From: Aureococcus anophagefferens
Lineage: Eukaryota; Sar; Pelagophyceae; Pelagomonadales; Pelagomonadaceae
Assembly (NCBI RefSeq): GCF_000186865.1
Contig: NW_008705571.1
Span: 832,530 to 896,529, forward strand
DNA length: 64,000 nt
Direction: 5' to 3'
Positions 30,219-43,373 of the stretch are shown one piece after another. The position numbers and the translations under genes are program-made. Numbering within the stretch: the stretch's first letter is position 1; every line of letters begins with the position of its first letter. A model generated the notes under the pieces. It was not told where the DNA came from and ran no database searches. It saw only the letters and a list, made by a program, of their open reading frames with translations.

Positions 30219-31114
30219 ATGGTGAGGTTCACCGTATCTAGGCGTGAAGCAAACAGCCGCGCTATGGAGCTCGGGTTCCACATTAAGCAAGTCGACGCGC
30301 GCGCCCGCGTCCCCTTTTCGCTGCCCTTTTGTCGCCACACAGAAGCCGCGCAGATAAACGACTCCCTCCTGGCGATCCACGATGGCGTCGAGATGCGGCG
30401 GACGCTCGCCGGCCTCGTCAAGGTCTCCGACTCGTTGTCCTCGGAGCAATCGGAGATCGCGCGCTCCAGCGTTGCATCTTTCCCGCGCGGGGCGGCTCCC
30501 GCGACACTTTTCCCCGGTGCAGGTCCACGACTTCTACTTCTACCTCTTCGCCTTCAGCCGCGAGAACCGCTTCAGCCACGAGAAGACGTCGACGCTGCTG
30601 TCGATCTGCCGCGACGTCTTCGACGGGGACATGGGCACGAACGACCCCGCGAAGCACATGGGCACGTCCTTCGAGCGCCTCGAGGGCATGCTGCTGCGCC
30701 ACGCCGTCTTCCGGCCGCCCAAGTCCATCGGCGTCTTCGACGAGGGCGACGTCCGGTCGATCCTGAATTTCATGCTCCACAACTACTACCGCCACTGGCG
30801 GCTCTACAAGGTCTGCTTCACGCGGCGGCTCCAGTGCACGTTCACGCAGGTGCTGCCCTTTGGCGTCGAGGAGCCCGCGGCGTACCGGCCAGCGTCCTGC
30901 GGCCGTGACGATTTTCGAGAAATTTTGACCGGGAAAACGAAGAGAAATCGCCGCCGTCATGCTTGGTAGGTACCGGCCCCTCGTCGAGCTCCTGCCCCTG
31001 GGCGAGGCGCCGCCGGCGGTCCTCGAGCCCGAGCCCGAGCCCGAGGAGGAGGGCGGCGAGGCCGAGGACGGCGAGGCGACGGGCGAGGAGCCGCCGGCGG
31101 ACGAGGTAGCCTAG
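30219..31114 (+). CDS. CFAP119: Flagellar C1a-32/CFAP119-like protein, three exons
   Basis: The family (CLAMP/C1a-32, CFAP119/CCDC189) belongs to the central-pair C1a projection of motile cilia. Exons: 30219-30422, 30523-30881 and 30970-31114 (about 235 residues). The core is VHDFYFYLFAFSRENRFS, EKTSTLLSICRDVF, LLRHAVFRPPKSIGVF and NFMLHNYYRHWRLYKVCFT, matching the family's DFYFY, VFRPPxSI and YxRHYxLYKYxFT pattern. The C-terminal exon is a Glu/Pro-rich tail. Intron 1 (30423-30522) joins LAGLVK to VHDFYF; intron 2 is an 80-bp-family introner. The N-terminus is uncertain: the ATG at 30219 is followed by a donor-like GTGAGG, and an in-frame ATG lies at 30273 (MELGFHIKQ). Confidence 0.78.
30890..30969 (+). 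mobile_element. Introner, 80-bp family, copy 1
   Basis: The 80-bp element (CAGCGTCCTGCGG to CATGCTTGGTAG) is flanked by a perfect 8-bp duplication GTACCGGC at 30882-30889 and 30970-30977. It is about 92% identical (6 differences in 80) to the element at 42843-42922. The upstream duplicate starts with GT and the element ends TAG, so 30882-30969 can be removed as an 88-bp GT-AG intron that restores the uninterrupted frame (AAYRPLVELL). Confidence 0.9.
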
Positions 31115-33304: not shown

Positions 33305-36300
33305 TTACTCGGTCTGGCGGATCTTCCGCCGGCGCTCCGCGGACAGAACCTGTTCTTTCCGCTTCTTGGCCCAGGACGTCGGATCGATGGACGGCTTGAC
33401 GCCGCGGCCGTAGGCCGAGCTCGCCTGGTCCTGGGCGGACTTGGAGCGCAGGTTCTTGTCGCGGATCTTGGGCAGGCGCTTCCGCGGCGACGACCGGAGC
33501 GCGGACCGCGCGAGCTTGGCGGAGCGCAGCAGCTGGCGGATCTCGTGGCTCCGGAGCCCGGCGGCGTGGAGCCTGTGTGCAAATCAACCAGTGAGCTGGG
33601 ACGTCGGGGCCAAACTTCAGAATTCTCTAGCTCGGTCAAATCGAAGTCGATTTGGCTGATTTTTGGACGAATCGATTGCTCTCAGCGAGTTCTCGAAGCA
33701 CGGCGGAAGTGATTGTGTCAAAACATTCGAATACGCGCACATTGAAGTCGGGTTGAAGATTTGATTTGCACACAGCGTGGAGCGTCGCGCTCGAGATGGC
33801 CGCGAAGGACGCCAAGTCGCCGCAGTTGGCGTCGCGGAGCCGCGCGGCCGCGCGGACGGCGCGCGGCGCGTCGACGCCCGACGCGACGAGGAAGGCCAAA
33901 AGGAAGCCGTCGCGCACGTCGTCGTCGGCCGACGCCGCCCGCGCGCCGCCGCCGTCCGTCGTCGCCGCGCTGAGGTCGCTCGCGCTCTGCTCGACGTCGA
34001 CGGCGCTTCGGGGCGACGAGCCGCGGCTCCGCCGCTTCGCGGGGGACGCGGAGTCGTCGCCGCGCTTCTCCGCGGCGTCGCGCTCGAGGGCCGCGAGGCG
34101 CGCCTCGAGGACGCTCAGGCGCCCCCGCGCGCGGAGGCTCTTGGCCTCGGCCTCCTCCTGGGCCCGGCGCTTCGCACGGTTCGCGGCCTTGCGCTTCGCG
34201 GCCTCCTCGACGGCCTCGGGCGCGGCGAAGAACTGGACCTGGACGATGGGCGCCGCGTCCGGGTCCTCGGGGTTGCCCGGCGTCTGCGACTGGCCCGCGG
34301 GCCGCGTCGCCATCGCGTCGTCGGGGAACCGCGGCGACTTGCGCGCCTTCCGCTTCTTCTTCTTGCCCGACTCGAACTGGACGCCCCGCGGCGGCGGCTC
34401 GTCGTCGAAGCGCGCGCGCCGCCGCTCGTGGAGCTCGGACGCGTCGGGCTGGGGCGACTCGCGCGCGTCGTCGTCGTCCGCCGGCGGCGGGCTCGCGAAG
34501 CGCGCCTTCCGGCCGCCGGGCGGCGGCGTGCCGCCGGCGACCTTGACGCGGGCCTCGCGCGCGTCGTCGTCGCGCGGCGGCGGCGTGCCGAAGCGCGCCT
34601 TGCGCGGCTTCGGGCTCGACACCTCCGCCGCGAAGCGCGCGCGGCGCGGGCTCTCGTCGCGCTCGCGGTGCAGCGGCGACGTCACGGACGTCGGCGACGA
34701 CTCCTTGAGGTCGCCGTCCTTGAAGGCCTCGTCGCCGCCGCGGCCCCGGTCGACGCGCCGCGGCGACCCGCCCTGGGGCGCGCGCTCGACGCCCTTGGGC
34801 CGCTCGCGCGCGGCGGCCGCGTCGACGCCGGGGCCCGGCGCGCCCGCGTCGTCGCCGAGGTCGTGGCGCAGCGGGGGCTCCGCGGGCGCCGCGTCCCAGC
34901 GCAGCGCCGCCGGCGGCTCCGCCGCGTCGTCCCAGCGCAGCGCCGCCGCCGGTTCCTCCGGCTCGTCCCGGGCCTCGGGCTCGCCGCGGCCGATCTCCGC
35001 GTTCGCGGCCGCGATGAGCGCGGCGCGGTCCTCGGGGTCGACGCCGATGGCCGCCATCATCGCCGCGTCCTCCTCCGGGTTCTCGCCGAAGGCCGCCATC
35101 GTCGCCTCCTCCGCGGCCGCCTCCGGGTCCCGCGCCGCGAGGCCGAAGCTCGCGCGGCCCTCGGGCTCCTGTTCGCGCTCGGGCATGGGCGGCGGCTCGT
35201 NNNNNNNNNNNNNNNNNNNNNNNNNNNNNNNNNNNNNNNNNNNNNNNNNNCGCACCGCCGCCGGCGGCTCGTCGAGAGCCGTGGGCCGTCTCCTCCTCCA
35301 CGGGCTCCGCCGCCTCCTCCGGCGGCGGCTCGTCCGAGGCCGCCGGCTCCGCCGGCTCGTCGAAGCGCGCGGCCGCCGGCTCGCTCGCGTCCGACCCCGG
35401 CGACGCGAGCGTCTTCGCCGTCGACTGCAGGTCGCTGTCCGCGGGCGCGACGCTCGCCGGCGGCGAGTGGTCCGGCGGCGGCGGCGACGCAAAGTCCGCG
35501 CGGTCTGGCTCCGAGGCCGGCGACGCGTCGAGCGCGACGGCCGGCGGCGCCGCGGCGTCGGCGAGGACGACCGGCTCGTCGTCGAGGACGACCGGCTCGT
35601 CGTCGAGGACGACCGGCTCGTCGTCGAGGACGACCGGCTCGTCGTCGACGGGCGCCGCCGCGCCGGCGTCCGCGGCGGCGTCCGCCGCGGCGCCGTTGAC
35701 GGGCGCGGGCGGCGCGGCGACGGCGTCGAAGTCGACGAGGGGCTGGTGGCTGATGTCGAAGGAGCCGTCCGTGTTCAGGCGGACGACGTCGCTCGGGAGG
35801 TCGGCCATGTCCGGGCTCACGATCGCCGGGTCGCGCGGCGAGAGGCGCGGCGTCGCCCCGGCGGGCGCCACCATCTGCTCCATGGGCGCCACGCCCTGGT
35901 CCATCATCTGCTCCTGGTGCATGGACATGGCGATCTCGTAGGACCGCGGCGTGAGGACGACGTCCTGGCCCGTCGCCGCCGCGCGCTCCATCTCGGCGTG
36001 GATGTGCTCGCGCATCATGGCCTCGGCCATCATGGACTCCATCATGTGGTGCTCGATGGCCGCCTGCTGCATCTCCGCGTGCGCGGCGGCCATGGCGTAG
36101 GACCGCGGCGTCCACTGTTCGCCGCCCGGCGGCGCGTAGCCCGCGGGCGGCACGGCGCCGGGCGGCGGCGCGCCGCCGCCGTAGGCCTCGGGCGCGTAGT
36201 CCGGGTTGTCCGGGTAGTCCGGCGGCAGCTCGCCCCCCGCGGCGGCCCCGTAGTCCGCGGCGACGGCGGCGTCGGCAAGCTCCAGGGCCGCGTAGTGGGC

Positions 36301-36432
36301 CTCCTCGCCCTTCTTGTGGAGCTCGGCCTCGGCGACGGCGACGGGCGTGTACGCCTCCTCGGCGACGGGCGACCCGGCGTCGGGGACGTCGACGGGGGGC
36401 GGGACTCCAGGGTCGGGCTGCCCCGGCTCCAT
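33305..36432 (-). CDS. Disordered protein with SAM-like C-terminal domain, interrupted by assembly gap
   Basis: Start MEPGQPDPGVPPP at 36432. The N-terminal half is disordered: two TPRSY motifs in a Met-rich region (about 105-185) and four tandem DDEPVVL units. After the 50-N gap the frame differs, as expected for a gap of unknown length. The second half carries RxARF motifs, a basic KKKKRKARKS stretch, a coil (RKAANRAKRRAQEEAEAK) and a C-terminal helical domain, FLLAFLVASGVDAPRAV to SHEIRQLLRSAKLARS, resembling a SAM domain. That domain is split by an introner: exon 1 ends at 33785, the intron is 33573-33784, and exon 2 is 33572-33305, ending RRKIRQTE. Full length unknown. No orthologue recognised. 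Confidence 0.65.
33573..33776 (-). mobile_element. Introner, ~204-bp TIR family, copy 1
   Basis: 204 bp with terminal inverted repeats CTGTGTGCAAATCAA and TTGATTTGCACACAG, flanked by a perfect 8-bp duplication CGTGGAGC (33565-33572 and 33777-33784). About 98% identical to the copy at 38959. On the coding (minus) strand the upstream duplicate begins GC and the element ends CACACAG, giving a GC-AG intron 33573-33784 with exact restoration. A GT at element position 5 would instead add 12 nt in frame. Confidence 0.93.
35201..35250. other. Assembly gap (50 Ns)
   Basis: Run of 50 Ns inside the coding region of the 33305-36432 gene. It is flanked on both sides by sequence coding for EPP-type repeats, which may explain the failed assembly. 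Confidence 1.
35562..35645 (-). repeat. 21-bp tandem repeat, four copies
   Basis: Four perfect copies of gaggacgaccggctcgtcgtc on the plus strand, coding for four consecutive DDEPVVL heptads in the minus-strand gene. Confidence 0.9.
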
Positions 36433-36663
36433 CCTTGGTAAACCGCCTTAAACGCGGCTGCAACGTTTCAACCTCGGCTTATTTATTGGGCGCTCTCCGG
36501 CAGCCCTCGGGGGAGCTTACTAGATCTAGCAAAGCGTGCCGACGAAGAAGCGTCGGGGCGAATAAATTTACGGCGTCTCGCGCCGCGGGGATCGGCTACG
36601 GGACGCGCGCCCCGGGTCCCAGCTCCGTGGGCTCCCAACCCCGCAGCCGCCGCCGGAAAAACC

Positions 36664-37591
36664 ATGCCGCGGGCGTCGGACCTGCAGAGCTCCTCCAGCT
36701 CCTCAAAGGACCCCTCCCTCGACGACGTCGTGCTCGTGCGGCTCCCGGCCCGGAGCGGCGCGAGCCGCGCGGCGACGTCCGTCTTCGAGATCCAGAACGT
36801 GCTCTCCCCGGACGCCTGCGTGCGAGCACGAGACGCGGTGAACGAGTGCTTCGACGCCGGCGCGGAGCGCGGAGCCCCCCCCTCTGATGATGTTCCCCCC
36901 CGTCCCCCGGCCTCACGGAGCCCCGCGCAGGTCGAACGACGGACCGCGGCGTCAGCCTGCCGACGCAGGACGTCATGGTCAGCAGCCTGCCCCAGCAGTC
37001 GCAGGACGAGATCCGCAACGCGCTCGAGCTGACCGCGCGGAGGGTCTCCATGGAGCTCACGGGCGTCACCCTCGAGTTCACCATGTCGCGGGCCTTCGTC
37101 ATCGTCTACGACGCCGCGCGCCAAAAGGGCCTCAAGTGCGTGCGCCCTCCCCCGCGCGCGCGCGCCTCCGCCGACGCCCCGGGCCCCGCAGGAAGCACAC
37201 GGACGGCCGCAAGGAGGGCGCGACGCTGCTCCTGCTCATCTCCAAGCCGAACCGCGACTTCGAGGGCGGCGGGACGCGCTTCTTTCCCTCGGTCCTCGAG
37301 TCGTCCTTCGACGCGAAGCCCGCGCTCGGCAGCACGATCGTCTTCCCCTCGGACACGCTCCAGCACGAGGGCATCCCCATCAAGCGCGGCCGGCGCCTCC
37401 TCGTCTGCGTCTTCGCGACCAAGAAGAAGATCGGCGGCGGCGCGCTCGGCCCCGGCGACTCCAAGGCCATCGACACCATCCAGCCCGCGAGCTCGACGCA
37501 CGAGAAGGCCTCCAGCCACGGCAAGAGCAAATACGGCATGATGAACGACGACCAGGTCCTCTCGCAGGAGTGCGCGTGCACGATCTCCTGA
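36664..37591 (+). CDS. 2OG-Fe(II) oxygenase (prolyl-4-hydroxylase-like), three exons
   Basis: Probable exons 36664-36901, 36931-37135 and 37192-37591 (about 280 residues). Exon 1 has FEIQNVLSPDACVRARDAVN; exon 2 has LPQQSQDEIRNALEL and SRAFVIVYDAARQKGLK; exon 3 opens KHTDG, the HxD iron ligands. It continues ATLLLLISKPNRDFEGGGTR, with distal ligands in DTLQHEGIPIKRGRRLL (His and the 2OG-binding Arg). Intron 2 (37136-37191, GTGCGT...GCAG) is clear. Intron 1 is uncertain: GTCCCCC...GCAG would be only 29 bp, next to C-runs that may hide errors. Substrate unknown; the C-terminal CACTIS ending resembles a prenylation-like Cys motif but is not convincing. Confidence 0.75.
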
Positions 37592-37904
37592 GGGCCCGTA
37601 GGACCCCCCGCTTCCCCCGTCTTTGTACATGATGTTTGTCATCCTTCGGTAGTGTGTACACGCGCCGACTCCGCCGGCGAGTCGAGCTTACACGCCGGCC
37701 GGCGTGAGCTTAAGCAAGAAAAAGTTAGATAAAAAAGAACACCGAAAGTCGGTTTGGCCTAGAGGGCCTCCTTGAGCATGCTGCGGTTCGGGCTCGGGGA
37801 GGGGCTTCGGCATGGTTCCCTGCCTGCCTGCCCGCCCAGACCGAGCGCCAGAGAAGGCTGTAATGCTCGCATCGGTTTCTGAAGGCACGTCCAGCTTCAC
37901 TATT
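37592..37904. other. Convergent intergenic spacer with palindromes
   Basis: 313 bp between the stops of the convergent 2OG oxygenase and the cation channel. It contains the hairpin GACTCCGCCGGCGAGTC near 37667 and the perfect 14-bp palindrome ACGCCGGCCGGCGT near 37692, then an AT-rich A-run near 37720-37740. These may serve 3'-end formation for either gene. No ORF of note. Confidence 0.5.
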
Positions 37905-40900
37905 TTATGTTGGCACGACGTCGTCGCCGGGCCCCGAGTTCGTGTCCTTCGGGTCGCCCGCGGCGGAGAGGCGCGCGTGGCGGAAGCGGCCCACGCAGCG
38001 CATGACGTGGAGCTGGACGAGGCAGCGGCACCAGCGGACCTTGAGCTTGGGGATGCCGATGAAGCACTGCTTCACGAGCGTCGCGGCGACCGCGTGGTAC
38101 TCGAGCTCGCGCGCGGCCTGGCCGTCGGCGAGCGTGTCGAGGGACGTGTCGTGGTGCGCCACGTCGAGGTGCACGGCGTAGGCACTGTGGCGGTTCTTCT
38201 CGTAGGCGTGGCACTCCTCGAGGATGAAGCGCGCGCGGACCATGAGCTCGACGAAGCGCGAGTCGCGGCCGCACCCGAAGGGCGCCTTCAGGTCCCGCAG
38301 CAGCCGGTAGATGGCCGCCTCGGGGATGCGCCCGGAGCCCGTCGGGTCGTGCCTCCCCCAGACGCGCCGCAGGTCCTCGATGCCGCCGTAGGCCGCGACG
38401 ATCTTCGGCTCGCTCAGCGAGTCGTAGGCCTCCGAGATGATCATGACGAAGAGGTTCAACACGAAAAAGTCCATGATCACCACGAAGGAGCCGAAGAACA
38501 CATACACCCCAAACTTGTACAACGGCTCGTTCCAGCCCGGCTTCGGGTCCGCGGCCGCTATAACGAGCTCGGGCCAGACGTCGCCGTTCGCGCACACGAA
38601 CAACAGCAGCAGCGCGTGCGCCGGCGACTGGAAGCCGAGGTAGTGGCCCCGGGGCTCCGGCAGGTCGTAGTGCGCGTAGAGCAACCGCCCCAGGCCCGCG
38701 TAGACGTACAGGATCATGAACATGATGAGCAGGATCGCGACGATGAACCGCATCGGCCGCGTGACCGCGTAGTAGATCTGCGCGTAGTTCGGCAGGCGCC
38801 GCAATAATCGCAGGATGCGCGCGCAGGACACGGCGGCCGCGACCTTGACGGGCCCCGCGTCGCGGCAGGACCGGCCCCAGAGCGCCTCGACGAGCGCGGC
38901 CAGCGTCACGAACAAGTTGCCGAGGTTCGCGGAGTCGTCCGCGTAGGCGCGGAGCGACCTGTGTGCAAATCAAATCTTCAACCCGACTTCAATGTGCGCG
39001 TATTCGAATGTTTTGACACGAGCACTTCCGCCGTGCTTCGAGAACTCGCTGAGAGCAATCGATTCGTCCAGAAATCAGCCGAATCGACTTCGATTTGACC
39101 GAGCTAGAGAATTCTGAAGTTTGGCCCCGACGTCCCAGCTCACTGGTTGATTTGCACACAGGGAGCGACCCGCGCGCGTAGAGCGCCAGCAGGACCTCGG
39201 CGGAGAACGCGCACGCGACGACGCCCGACGTCGCCGCGGCGACGGCGGGGAGCCAGGCCGGCTCGCTCCGGTGGCGGCAGGCCATCGCGGCCGCGTTGAC
39301 GAGGATGACGCCGTCGAGGCCCCAGCCCGCGGCGCCGCGCTGCGTCATCTCGCGCTCGAGCCAGAGCCGCAGGGGCGTCGGCGGCGCCTCGCTCACGGGC
39401 ACGCTCGACCGCTTGACGTCGTGGAGCACGCCGTTGAGCAGCCGCCGCGCGTTGCCCTCCGCGGCCGTGACGAAGTAGCCCTTGACCTCCGCGTCCGTCG
39501 TCGTCGCCGCGATGGCGTCGTTGCGCATCTCGAGGAAGCCGCCCCAGATGAGGTTCATGAAGAGCTGGGCGAAGTAGATGTTGAGGCAGAAGTAGACGAC
39601 GAAGAAGTACCAGAACGCGAATTCGCTGTGGCCGCTCTTCGGCGAGTAGTTCGCCTCCGTCGCGGCCATCGCGGAGAACATGAGGTCCGTGTAGCCCGAG
39701 CCCGCGATGAGTAAGAACGTCGACAGGATGCTCCCCGGGAAGTCGTCGTAGGTGTAGGGCGGGTTCTCCCAGCGCTCGTTCGCGCACGGCGCGACCTTCT
39801 CCGAGCCGTCGCTGAAGGTCTCGCCGCGGCGGTACGCGTATCTCGGGAAGCCCGGGTCCGTGCAGTAGGCGAACGTGCCCTTGAAGAACTCCTGGCCGAT
39901 GAGCGCCGCCACGGGCCAGACGACGAACATCACCGAAAAGAGCGCGCCGAGCGTCGGCACGCACGAGATCACGGACACGGCCAGCAGCCGCACGGTCTTG
40001 AGCTCGCGGACCAGGACGAGACATCGCAGGGACCGGAGCACGAAGAAGACGCGGTTGCCCGGGTCCAGGATCAGGCCCACGATGCCCGCGAAGACGACGG
40101 CGCGCTCGAGGCCGATCGCCGCGCCGCGCGCGGCGCGCCGGAGCCGGTCGTCGATCTTCCACCCGTGGCGCCGCCGCTCGCCCTCCTCTTCGTCGTGGAT
40201 GAAGCCGTGGAGCGTCGCCGACTGGTCCTCGCTGAGCCCGTTCTGCTGCGACGAATGGAGCTTGTCCTCGGGCCGGCGCCGGTTCGCGTCGAGGTGGCGC
40301 CGCGCGCGGTGGTACGCGTGCGCCGCGCGGCAGGCGCACTCCGCCACAAAAACCAGCCCCGCCGCGGCGTCCAAGATCGCCCAGCCCGGCCGCGCGTCCG
40401 GGCCCGCGTAGGCGTCGCAGAGCGGCACGCCGCACGTGACGACGGACGACGCGACGGCGTCGCGGAACGCCTTACTTTCGACGAGGTGCTCGAAGAAGCG
40501 GGCCCAGCTCTCCTCGGACCGCTGCTTCTTCTTGGGGATGCGCACGCGCTTCTCCCGCGCCGGCTCCGGCAGGAAGAGGCTCATGCGCGCGTTCTTCTTC
40601 TGCGGCGGCACGGCGAAGTTCTTCCGGCCCTTGACGTTGAGCTGGTTTTTGGAGCCGTTGAGCTGGTGGACGAGCTCGACGTGGACGGCGCTCGCGCGGG
40701 CCTTGCGCGTGCTCGAGCGCCGCTTCTTGTTGAGGCGCGGCTCCCGCGGCGCGTCGCCGTCCTTCGTCTCCTCGACGGCGCGCGCCGCGGCCAGCGCGAG
40801 GCCGGGCGCCTCGGCGACGCGCGCGTGGAGCCGGAGCAGGAAGAAGGCGCGGTTCAGCCGCCGCCGCACGACGAGGACGTAGTAGATCATGCGGAGCTTC

Positions 40901-43373
40901 TTGCGCTGGTCGAGGACGTCCAGGTAGAGCGTCGTCGACTCGTCCAAGAGGCACGCGAGCACGACGTTCGCGAGCACGAGGCGCCCGACGACGGCGATGG
41001 TCACGAAGAACGCCGCGCTCTCCTCGCCGCACTTGGCCATCGTCGAGTACATGACGTAGCTCCAGTCCTCGCCCAGCGCCGTGAGGAAGACCTGGAGGAA
41101 GGCCCAGGTGAACGAGTCGAAGCGCACCGCGCGCTCGTGCTCCGCGTCGTTCGGCGACGTCGCGACGAGGCCGTAGGGCCCGAAGAACTGCATGGCGCCC
41201 AGGGTCATGATGAAGAGGAAGAGGAGCAGGAGGAGCAGGCTCGGCCAGACCGCGTCGAGCGCCACCTCGATCATGAGCAGCACCTCCCTCAGCGAGTTCC
41301 AGTGGCGGACCGCGCGCACGAGCCGCGCGAGGCGCACGAGCCGCAGGATGCGCAGCGCCTTGACGCTGCGGAGCATGGACTCGACGAAGATCTCGACGAC
41401 GGAGCAGACGCAGATCACGAAGTCGAACCAGTTCCACGCGTCGCCGAAGTACGGCCCGACGCCGAGGATCGCGACCTTGGCCGCGAACTCGACCGCGAAG
41501 AAGATGGACGACCAGAGGTTGACGACGTTCGCGAAGCGCGACACGGACTTGGTCGCGTGGTAGCCGTCGGCGGCCATGGCCGCGACGCTCAGCAGCACGA
41601 CGAGCGTCACGAGCACGTTCGGCCACCGCGTCGGCGACGTGAGGAGTCGGCGGACCCGCGAGCTCCGCGTGCCGCGCCAGAGCCGGTCGCCGAGGGTCTG
41701 CGGCCGCTGGATGCGCAGGGACATGTCCTCCGGCACGAACTTATCGTCGTCGTCGAGCTCCATGGACCGCGTCTTGACGAGCCTGTCGCTGATCGCGTTG
41801 ACGTGGCGCCTGCGCGGGTGGACTCGTAAGCTTTCAAAAAGGGGGGGGGACGCCGCCGCCGCGCCGCTCGGGCTCCTCCGCGGGCGCGAGCTCGCCGTCG
41901 AGGACCGCCTTGATGTCCTCGCGCGTGTCGCCGTACTCGTGGAACTGGGAAAGCAGCGCGGCGACGGCGATGGAGAAGAGCATCGTGCTCACGGCGAGCA
42001 TGAAGCAGACGAAGAACGCGGACACGCCGGAGCCTGCGACGACAAGAAGTCTCACCCCCGCCAAGTAGTACACGGGACGCCGCCGCCGCGCCGTTGGCCT
42101 CCTGCGTGTGGAGCATGATGTCGCTCCAGATCTCGCCAAAGGCCAGGTTCGTCAGCGTGAGGACCGTCGTGAGCACGTTGCGGAACCCCGCGTAGCCCCG
42201 GCCCGGCCCGTCGGCGGACGCCGCGCGCGCGCAGGAGTAGCCCGCCTCGCAACCGTAGCCGTCGACGACGAGCCGCGGCAGGCCGCAGGTCCTCGCGGTG
42301 CCGCCGGGCGCGACGGCGTCGTCGTTCAGCCAGCAGGCGACCTGCGAGATCTCGAGGCCCGCGCTGAGCTCGTCGCCGTACTGGGGCGACCCGTCGAGGT
42401 CGGAGACGCAGCGCGTCACGGGCGTCGGGCTCCACAGCTGCATCGCCGCGAGCGACAGCGTCAGCAGGACGCCCGCGATCATCAGCACGATGTCGCGGAG
42501 GTTGATGAGCGACCGGAGCAGCACGGCGATGGTCCGCTGGAGCCTACGGGCACGCGGGGTGGGTCATCGCGGGGCGTCTCGCGGCACGCGCACCTCGGCA
42601 CGCGGTTCACGGTGCGCAGCGGCCGGAGCACGCGGAGCGCCTTGAGGAAGCTCACGTCGGGCGCGTCCATGTACGCGGCGTCGACGACGCCCGTCAGCGC
42701 GACGACGGCGTCGAGCACGTTCCAGGCGCTGTAGAAGTAGCGCAGCCGGAACGTCGCGATCTTCGCGATGGCCTCGAGGACGAAGGCGCCGAGGATCGCG
42801 AGGTCCGCCGCCTTCCACCAGAGCGGCGCGCCGCCGTCGCGCCTACCAAGCATGACGGCGACGATTTCTCTTCGTTTTCCCGATCAAAATCGCTCGAAAA
42901 TCGTCACGGCCACAGGACGCCGCGTCGCGCTCCCAGCGCGGGTTCCACATCGCGAGCAGGGCGCAGTTGATCAGGATGAGCACGAGCATGCCGTTCTCGA
43001 AGCGCTTCGACTTGAGGAAGCGGCCCGCGCGCGACGGCGCGGCGACGCGCGCGGCGGACGCGTCGCCCGACGGCGACCGGCGCCACGGCTCGTAGCGCTG
43101 GCCCTCGCCGAGGGCCTTGTTCGCCGCGGCGTTCTCCTGCTCGTCCGTCAGCTCGAGAGTCGGCGCGACGTCGACGACGACGTCGACCCGGGGCTCGTCG
43201 ACGTCGGCGTAGCAGAAGAACTCGAAGGGCGGCGGCGTCTCAAAGGTCGTCGAGCAGGACCAGCACTGGTCCTGTAAGGGCATCGGCTCCTCTCGCGAGC
43301 TGGGCTTGAACAGGTCGCTCGGCGCGAACAGGTCGGAGAACCACCCGCCGCCGCTCTCGCGGCGCTTCGCCAT
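37905..43373 (-). CDS. Four-domain voltage-gated cation channel (Cav/Nav/NALCN type)
   Basis: About 1,695 residues in five exons: 43373-42931, 42842-42594, 42543-42074, 42033-39170 and 38958-37905. Four 6-TM repeats are visible, each with an S4 (for example LKALRVLRPLRTVNRV and LRSVKALRILRLVRLARLVR). Pore loops read FGEIW, LGEDW, AGSGY and NGDVW in domains I to IV, a filter ring of E-E-S-D. After IVS6 comes the Cav-type EF-like block RRVWGRHDPTGSGRIPEAAI. Two introns are introners (42843-42930, 38959-39169); the others are 42544-42593 and 42034-42073. One base too many in the a5g9 run at 41836-41849 breaks the frame between domains I and II; phases agree if one base is removed. Membrane Ca2+ or Na+ channel, selectivity uncertain. 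Confidence 0.88.
38959..39161 (+). mobile_element. Introner, ~204-bp TIR family, copy 2 (opposite orientation)
   Basis: 203 bp with the same terminal inverted repeats CTGTGTGC...GCACACAG, flanked by a perfect duplication GGAGCGAC (38951-38958 and 39162-39169). Relative to its host gene it is inverted compared with the copy at 33573. On the minus strand the upstream duplicate begins GTCGCTCC and the element again ends CACACAG, so it forms a GT-AG intron restoring ARGSLRAYADD in the channel. Confidence 0.93.
42843..42922 (-). mobile_element. Introner, 80-bp family, copy 2
   Basis: 80 bp on the minus strand, CGGCGTCCTGTGG to CATGCTTGGTAG, with a perfect 8-bp duplication (plus strand CGTCGCGC at 42835-42842 and 42923-42930). 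In the sense orientation of the channel gene, the upstream duplicate begins GC and the element ends TAG. Removal of 42843-42930 restores WERDGGAPLWW. Confidence 0.9.

Follow-up and report, generated by a model that had tools for sequence, protein, structure and literature searches.

In this study, we describe a 64,000-nucleotide stretch of the Aureococcus anophagefferens genome (contig NW_008705571.1, positions 832,530 to 896,529 of the forward strand; hereafter "the window") that contains two copies of a short repeat, which we call family A. Our principal conclusion, to which we give a probability of roughly 0.93, is that family A is a non-autonomous DNA transposon (a miniature inverted-repeat transposable element, MITE) acting as an introner, which would be spliced using an AG in its terminal inverted repeat (TIR) and a GT or GC (GY) at the start of the target site duplication (TSD). 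Family A copies share a common anatomy, lie in genes in both orientations, have sense-strand GY at the TSD far beyond background, leave an open reading frame when cut out, and decay unequally at their two ends. These features suggest that the copies are spliced out of transcripts and that a transposase mobilised them. The features at the two sites are as follows.

33573..33775, plus strand: family A introner copy 1, 203 bp, oriented against its host gene, with the 15-bp TIR CTGTGTGCAAATCAA
38959..39161, minus strand: family A introner copy 2, 203 bp, oriented with its host gene
33565..33572, no strand: TSD copy CGTGGAGC at site 1, with which the 3' exon would begin when read on the minus strand
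33776..33783, no strand: second TSD copy at site 1, minus strand GCTCCACG, putative source of a GC 5' splice site
38951..38958, no strand: TSD copy GGAGCGAC at site 2, with which the 3' exon would begin when read on the minus strand
39162..39169, no strand: second TSD copy at site 2, minus strand GTCGCTCC, putative source of a GT 5' splice site
33573..33783, minus strand: predicted intron 1, 211 nt, GC-AG, phase 2; the host protein is continuous across the junction
38959..39169, minus strand: predicted intron 2, 211 nt, GT-AG, phase 2; the host gene encodes a voltage-gated cation channel

When one copy is reversed, the two elements differ at 4 of 203 positions (98% identity). The 15-bp TIR is perfect in both copies, the 8-bp TSDs CGTGGAGC and GGAGCGAC are perfect at both sites, and the copies point opposite ways within two genes of the minus strand, the strand of both hosts being supported by a codon model and by the homology of the joined frames. 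The original prediction, made from the letters alone, had described just such a pair of opposite-facing, about 98% identical introners with inverted repeats and perfect 8-bp duplications in minus-strand genes. This observation is confirmed; only the length given, about 204 bp, needs adjusting, as the first element is one base shorter. Copy 1 contains at least two stops in all six frames, and thus a retained element would truncate the protein. Family A therefore has the properties of a MITE: it is short (203 bp), has TIRs and a TSD, and contains no transposase gene, since copy 1 has stops in every frame. The 8-bp TSD together with TIRs is also a property of Aureococcus-type introners. The predicted folds of the sense strand give -59.0 kcal/mol and z = -2.6 for element 1, and z = -3.2 for element 2.

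The mechanism that we propose is as follows. Family A would insert with an 8-bp target duplication. Both inverted ends read ...TTGATTTGCACACAG outward, so that the downstream end would serve as the 3' splice site whichever the orientation, and a sense-strand TSD starting with GT or GC would provide the 5' splice site. Splicing would then cut out the element and one TSD copy (211 nt) and give back the original mRNA exactly. An insertion that lacks GY on the sense strand would presumably remain unspliced and be lost. After insertion, the two ends decay differently: the AG at the gene-3' end is retained, and its mirror image at the gene-5' end is often lost.

To count family A genome-wide, we searched the assembly in which the window lies (49.05 Mb in 86 contigs). 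There are 78 places where both ends match a 14-bp TIR perfectly with a spacing of 160-190 bases, and none for the reversed control pattern, which excludes chance; when the pattern is relaxed at one end, 118 places are found, 59 per contig strand, again with none for the control. The family may have more members than this, since a DNA search scored only 40 of 1737 first-look candidates. For analysis of the flanks, we used 68 copies: 51 with intact outer 7-mers, including both window copies, and 17 from the list of 118 places. L001 and L014, which are duplicates, and L079-L083 and L104-L106, which have changed ends or come from another pattern, are outside this set and were treated separately. 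To assign the gene strand, we used a codon model for which long open frames of the DNA studied served as training set. The flanks are clearly coding for 63 of the 68 copies (46 of the 51 by threshold, and the 17 with margins of at least 29.8), and family A thus consists of many near-identical, gene-interrupting copies, as expected of an Aureococcus-type introner. Thirty copies have the orientation of the gene and 38 the opposite one (p=0.40 vs 1:1); in the clear-coding set, the numbers are 25 and 38 (p=0.13). Like the window, the stretches L009, L058, L065 and L073 each contain an opposite-facing pair on the same gene strand. The claim that one introner family enters genes both ways round is therefore borne out, and copies facing only one way, the outcome that would have spoken against it, are not what the 68 copies show.

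A sub-family with CTGTGCCGAAACC ends has the same length and layout (L065:3574-3776 and L068:1123-1325), and one CTGTGCCGAAACC end each is found in L013:926 and in the cut stretch L070:1-52. A separate repeat, which has similar flanks of its own (tcaaaggctc...ttttccac), matches element positions 75-127 over at most about 53 bp; its 8 cases in the fetched stretches are L003:391-447, L018:2452, L063:1233, L064:3941, L068:564, L069:1329/4001 and L070:3469.

The element appears to contribute the 3' splice site only (CACACAG). The probable 5' splice site is the first two sense-strand bases of the TSD, GC in copy 1 and GT in copy 2, and the sense TSD starts with GT or GC in 66 of the 68 copies. Thus one splice site would be carried by the element and the other drawn from the TSD, a further property of Aureococcus-type introners. 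In the clear-coding set, sense GY is present in 63/63 copies (42 GC, 21 GT) and antisense GY in 15/63. The flanking sense background is 15.7% for GC and 4.2% for GT, so both are strongly enriched at the TSD start. A natural alternative is that this GT/GC reflects a target preference of the transposase and is not a splicing signal. The uniform geometry of the TSD in all copies (8 bp, perfect in 37 of the 51 copies of the first set) would suit such a preference. However, symmetric ends predict GY on both strands, whereas it is confined to the sense strand in 48 of the 63 copies, to the antisense strand in none, and present on both in 15; target preference would also leave unexplained the retention of the gene-3' CAG in all 16 end-changed copies described below. 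We therefore regard it as very improbable. The original prediction located a 3' splice site in the inverted repeats in either orientation, which agrees with the TIR-borne AG and the 30:38 orientations, but its account did not include the 5' splice site that the TSD start would supply. A branch point within the TIR (TTGAT) was also considered and is unsupported, as L009:737 reads TTGGT yet obeys the splice rule.

It might also be supposed that the copies spread as RNA, by reverse splicing of introns, and not by DNA transposition. Reverse splicing leads to a single orientation and no TSD. Among the 68 copies, in contrast, the TSD is perfect in 50, the TIRs are 15 bp long and the two orientations are nearly equal, so this explanation is even less credible, despite the fact that 63 of the 68 copies are in clear coding sequence and that such a gene bias is one of the grounds given for it in fungal introners (PMC9860276).

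At both window sites, cutting out the element and one TSD gives an open frame, and retaining the element gives stops in all three sense frames. The site 2 junction falls within a glycine codon of the voltage-gated channel. The Pfam domain Ion_trans (2.3e-28) covers residues 25-253 and spans the junction, which is near residue 70-71, and calcium-channel chains likewise align over it. The site 1 junction falls within a threonine codon. Here the public protein P0004 is 98.8% identical over residues 231-560 and is gapless at the junction (...FAAISSA^TLHAAGLRS...), and the homologues P0009-P0013 (37-39% identity) also cross it with no gap there. The source of P0004 is a 1.3-kb ENA contig, and the protein may come from an empty allele or from a spliced transcript. 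Proteins named as A. anophagefferens match the hosts at 100% over 105 residues (P0008), 98.8% over 84 (P0005) and 100% over 31 (P0001). With other gene models the alignments are longer but only 67-84% identical, where exon choice differs between models. A 50-N assembly gap (window positions 35201-35250) is present within the long open frame of the element 1 host gene. That the elements are simply unspliced insertions in dead genes is hardly tenable, because conserved proteins align over both junctions, sense GY is found in 63/63 clear copies, and the gene-3' CAG is kept in diverged copies.

This last point can be examined more closely. The two TIR ends are identical at insertion and splicing would use only one of them, so that a comparison of the ends maps the splicing constraint independently of RNA. 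We collected 16 copies with changed ends: 11 bystanders, identified by local BLAST in the fetched stretches, and 5 from the DNA search. One of the 17 candidates, L072, was dropped for a TSD match below 6/8, and short or cut matches were not counted as candidates. The outer CTG/CAG is lost at the gene-5' end in 12 copies, 6 per orientation, and at the gene-3' end in none (p=0.0005); the gene-3' CAG is intact, and GY present on the sense strand, in 16/16. By position, in the 12 copies that remain after excluding three with CTGTGCC ends and one with an indel, TIR position 2 is changed 11 times at the gene-5' end and never at the gene-3' end, position 4 is changed 3 and 5 times, respectively, and position 6 is changed 4 and 3 times. 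At the used end, then, the AG alone looks constrained among the outer seven bases.

A further count was made of genome-wide matches to one element end in which the rest of the 23-mer is intact. Position 2 is changed 17 times, and positions 4 and 6 four times each, so that position 2 accounts for 17/25 changes against an expected one third (p=0.0005). All 17 position-2 changes are at the gene-5' end (14 new copies plus L081, L082 and L106), compared with 2 of 7 changes at positions 4 and 6 (one of the eight was not fetched). GY was detected by script in 13 of the 14 new copies. In both L133, where the boundary had slipped by one base, and L132, a shortened copy, CACACAG followed by GT can be read by eye. 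The gene calls for L124, L135 and L106 are weak. A changed nearest neighbour was found for 6 of 26 changed copies (expected 6.9, p=0.63); changed copies do not cluster by sequence, and the position-2 change therefore seems recurrent. Median divergence is 10.8% in changed and 5.4% in intact copies (p=0.005), a comparison that is biased because intact ends were the selection criterion for the latter. For TIR positions 8-15, no asymmetry was seen by eye in pattern-selected copies, and this comparison was dropped because the selection rule biases it.

Constraint accounts for the zero at the gene-3' end and does not account for the excess of position-2 changes at the gene-5' end. In the predicted hairpin, gene-5' position 2 lies opposite the A of the AG at the 3' splice site and pairs with it, and the predicted probability that the AG is unpaired has a median of 0.005 in 46 intact copies and a mean of 0.45 in 13 decayed ones. 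We tentatively suggest, considering the odds to be somewhat against it, that gene-5' position 2 is repeatedly driven to change, which would free the AG or immobilise the element and so, by a recurrent change of one base, turn a new transposon neutral as to orientation into a better-spliced intron with a fixed orientation. Against such unmasking, three of the 13 decayed copies keep the AG largely paired (L079, without a position-2 change, and L082 and L011, with one), and genes seem to tolerate intact copies. The same counts would be expected from immobilisation, or from insertion-linked mutation if the copies in which it struck the gene-3' end were then lost. No report of asymmetric end decay was found in a literature search of titles and the beginnings of abstracts, nor in passages of PMC9860276, PMC7789003, PMC10228655 and PMC12768974; the text of Huff et al. 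2016 (Nature 538:533) was not covered, and priority is thus unchecked.

A second repeat in the window, family B, serves as a natural control.

30890..30969, plus strand: family B introner, 80 bp, ends CAGCGT...TGGTAG, TSD GTACCGGC, with a plus-strand gene
42843..42922, minus strand: second copy of the family B introner, plus-strand TSD CGTCGCGC, with a minus-strand gene, apparently GC-AG

The ends of family B are unlike, with an AG at one end only. We examined 22 copies: the two in the window and 20 of the best among 39 matches outside it (two shorter ones were skipped). All 22 face with the gene, L103 weakly so, and the difference in orientation from family A is significant (Fisher p=6e-7). 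Family A copies face both ways and the family B copies examined one way, which ties orientation freedom to the presence of AG at both ends. The 3' exon copy of the family B TSD starts with GC in 11 copies, GT in 10 and GA in one (L099), in which both TSD copies have GA, suggesting a GA-AG intron.

The near-identity of the window copies had been taken to indicate very recent insertion. Recent activity of the family stands, but proteins from other strains suggest that both sites are occupied there. The JL722 protein P0001 reads RARVAPCVQINQ at site 2, that is, the TSD plus the element start, and this strain seems to carry the site 2 insertion. At site 1, the other-strain models P0002, P0003, P0005 and P0006 break directly before LHAAG, as if the AG of the TIR had been used with differing upstream donors; the donor of P0006 would match the GT that begins GTCC directly after GACTTGGC in the window DNA. 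Both window insertions thus appear to be common to several strains, as judged from proteins and not from strain DNA. On these comparisons, near-identity shows recent activity of the family and not, it would seem, recent insertion on the strain scale. The public gene models at site 1 seem to skip the GC donor and to trim exon sequence by means of other upstream donors.

We also looked for a mobilising enzyme. Searches for an autonomous partner, defined by the 15-bp TIR followed by bases other than AT/CC, gave 0, 2 and 2 matches, all of which are family A (L060 and three others, L104-L106); a partner sharing 17 bp would escape this search. A genome profile search with PF10551 (MULE transposase) gave no match, with the control positive in 3 of 14 genomes; this is a weak negative, since introns could hide a match. 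A search with PF05699 (hAT transposase) gave none either and is uninformative, as its control likewise matched nowhere. Viral spread was considered because the 15-bp TIR occurs in 32 IMG/VR stretches; it does so once in each and never twice, which we took as chance, although the expected number was not computed.

Some of these results weigh against the proposed interpretation. No element combining the family A TIR with a transposase was found. Sampling was not random: except for a few bystanders, the 68 copies came from patterns or best hits, which in most cases demand intact ends. Omitting 20 bp around the junction flips 3 of 51 strand calls (L015, L054 and L070). By the strict rule, two of the 68 copies, L054 and L070, are without sense GY; each has one extra base between the TSD and the element and can be read as a GT-AG intron, which is an after-the-fact fit. 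In family B, 14 of 22 copies have a perfect 8-bp TSD and four an unclear one (L084, L089, L092 and L103), and L099 starts with GA, not GY. Finally, A. anophagefferens introners are described as having canonical splicing motifs (PMC7789003), whereas 42 of 63 copies here would start with GC.

The natural experiment on end decay, with its kept AG at one end and an unexpected hot position at the other, allows tests of how a transposon becomes a settled intron. These copies are also a warning for annotation, because two thirds of these introns (42/63) would begin with GC.

The introners described in this species in 2016 by Huff, Zilberman and Roy are said to contain one splice site each and to take the other from the TSD. 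The review PMC10228655 credits Huff et al. 2016 with reporting that the elements insert either way round and co-opt splice sites. Both-way introners in A. anophagefferens are therefore already known, and orientation-independent splicing, which the original prediction had singled out as worth documenting, is not new. Family A resembles the 2016 elements in species, DNA transposition, co-opted splice sites and both orientations (PMC10228655), as well as in TIRs and constant-length direct repeats (PMC7789003). The one difference found is in its apparent GC starts (42/63), as opposed to the "canonical" motifs of PMC7789003.

Gozashti et al. 2022 (PMC9860276) described TSD-derived 5' splice sites, and their search allows opposite-orientation insertions. 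Their TSD/TIR introners have a 4-bp TSD in the example given, unlike the 8-bp TSD of family A, and the proportion of GC 5' splice sites ranges from 0 to 50% per family, compared with a probable 42/63 here. Aureococcus sp. family 4 (PMC9860276, Fig. 2F legend), from the same genus, also has an 8-bp TSD; however, it contains both splice sites and lengthens the mRNA by 12 bp, whereas family A would add nothing. The introners of Amoebophrya (PMC7789003) are similar in having inverted repeats near their ends, direct repeats at their boundaries and the ability to form hairpins, but they have mostly non-canonical splice sites and direct repeats of 3-5 nt, in contrast to the predicted GY-AG sites and 8-bp TSD of family A.

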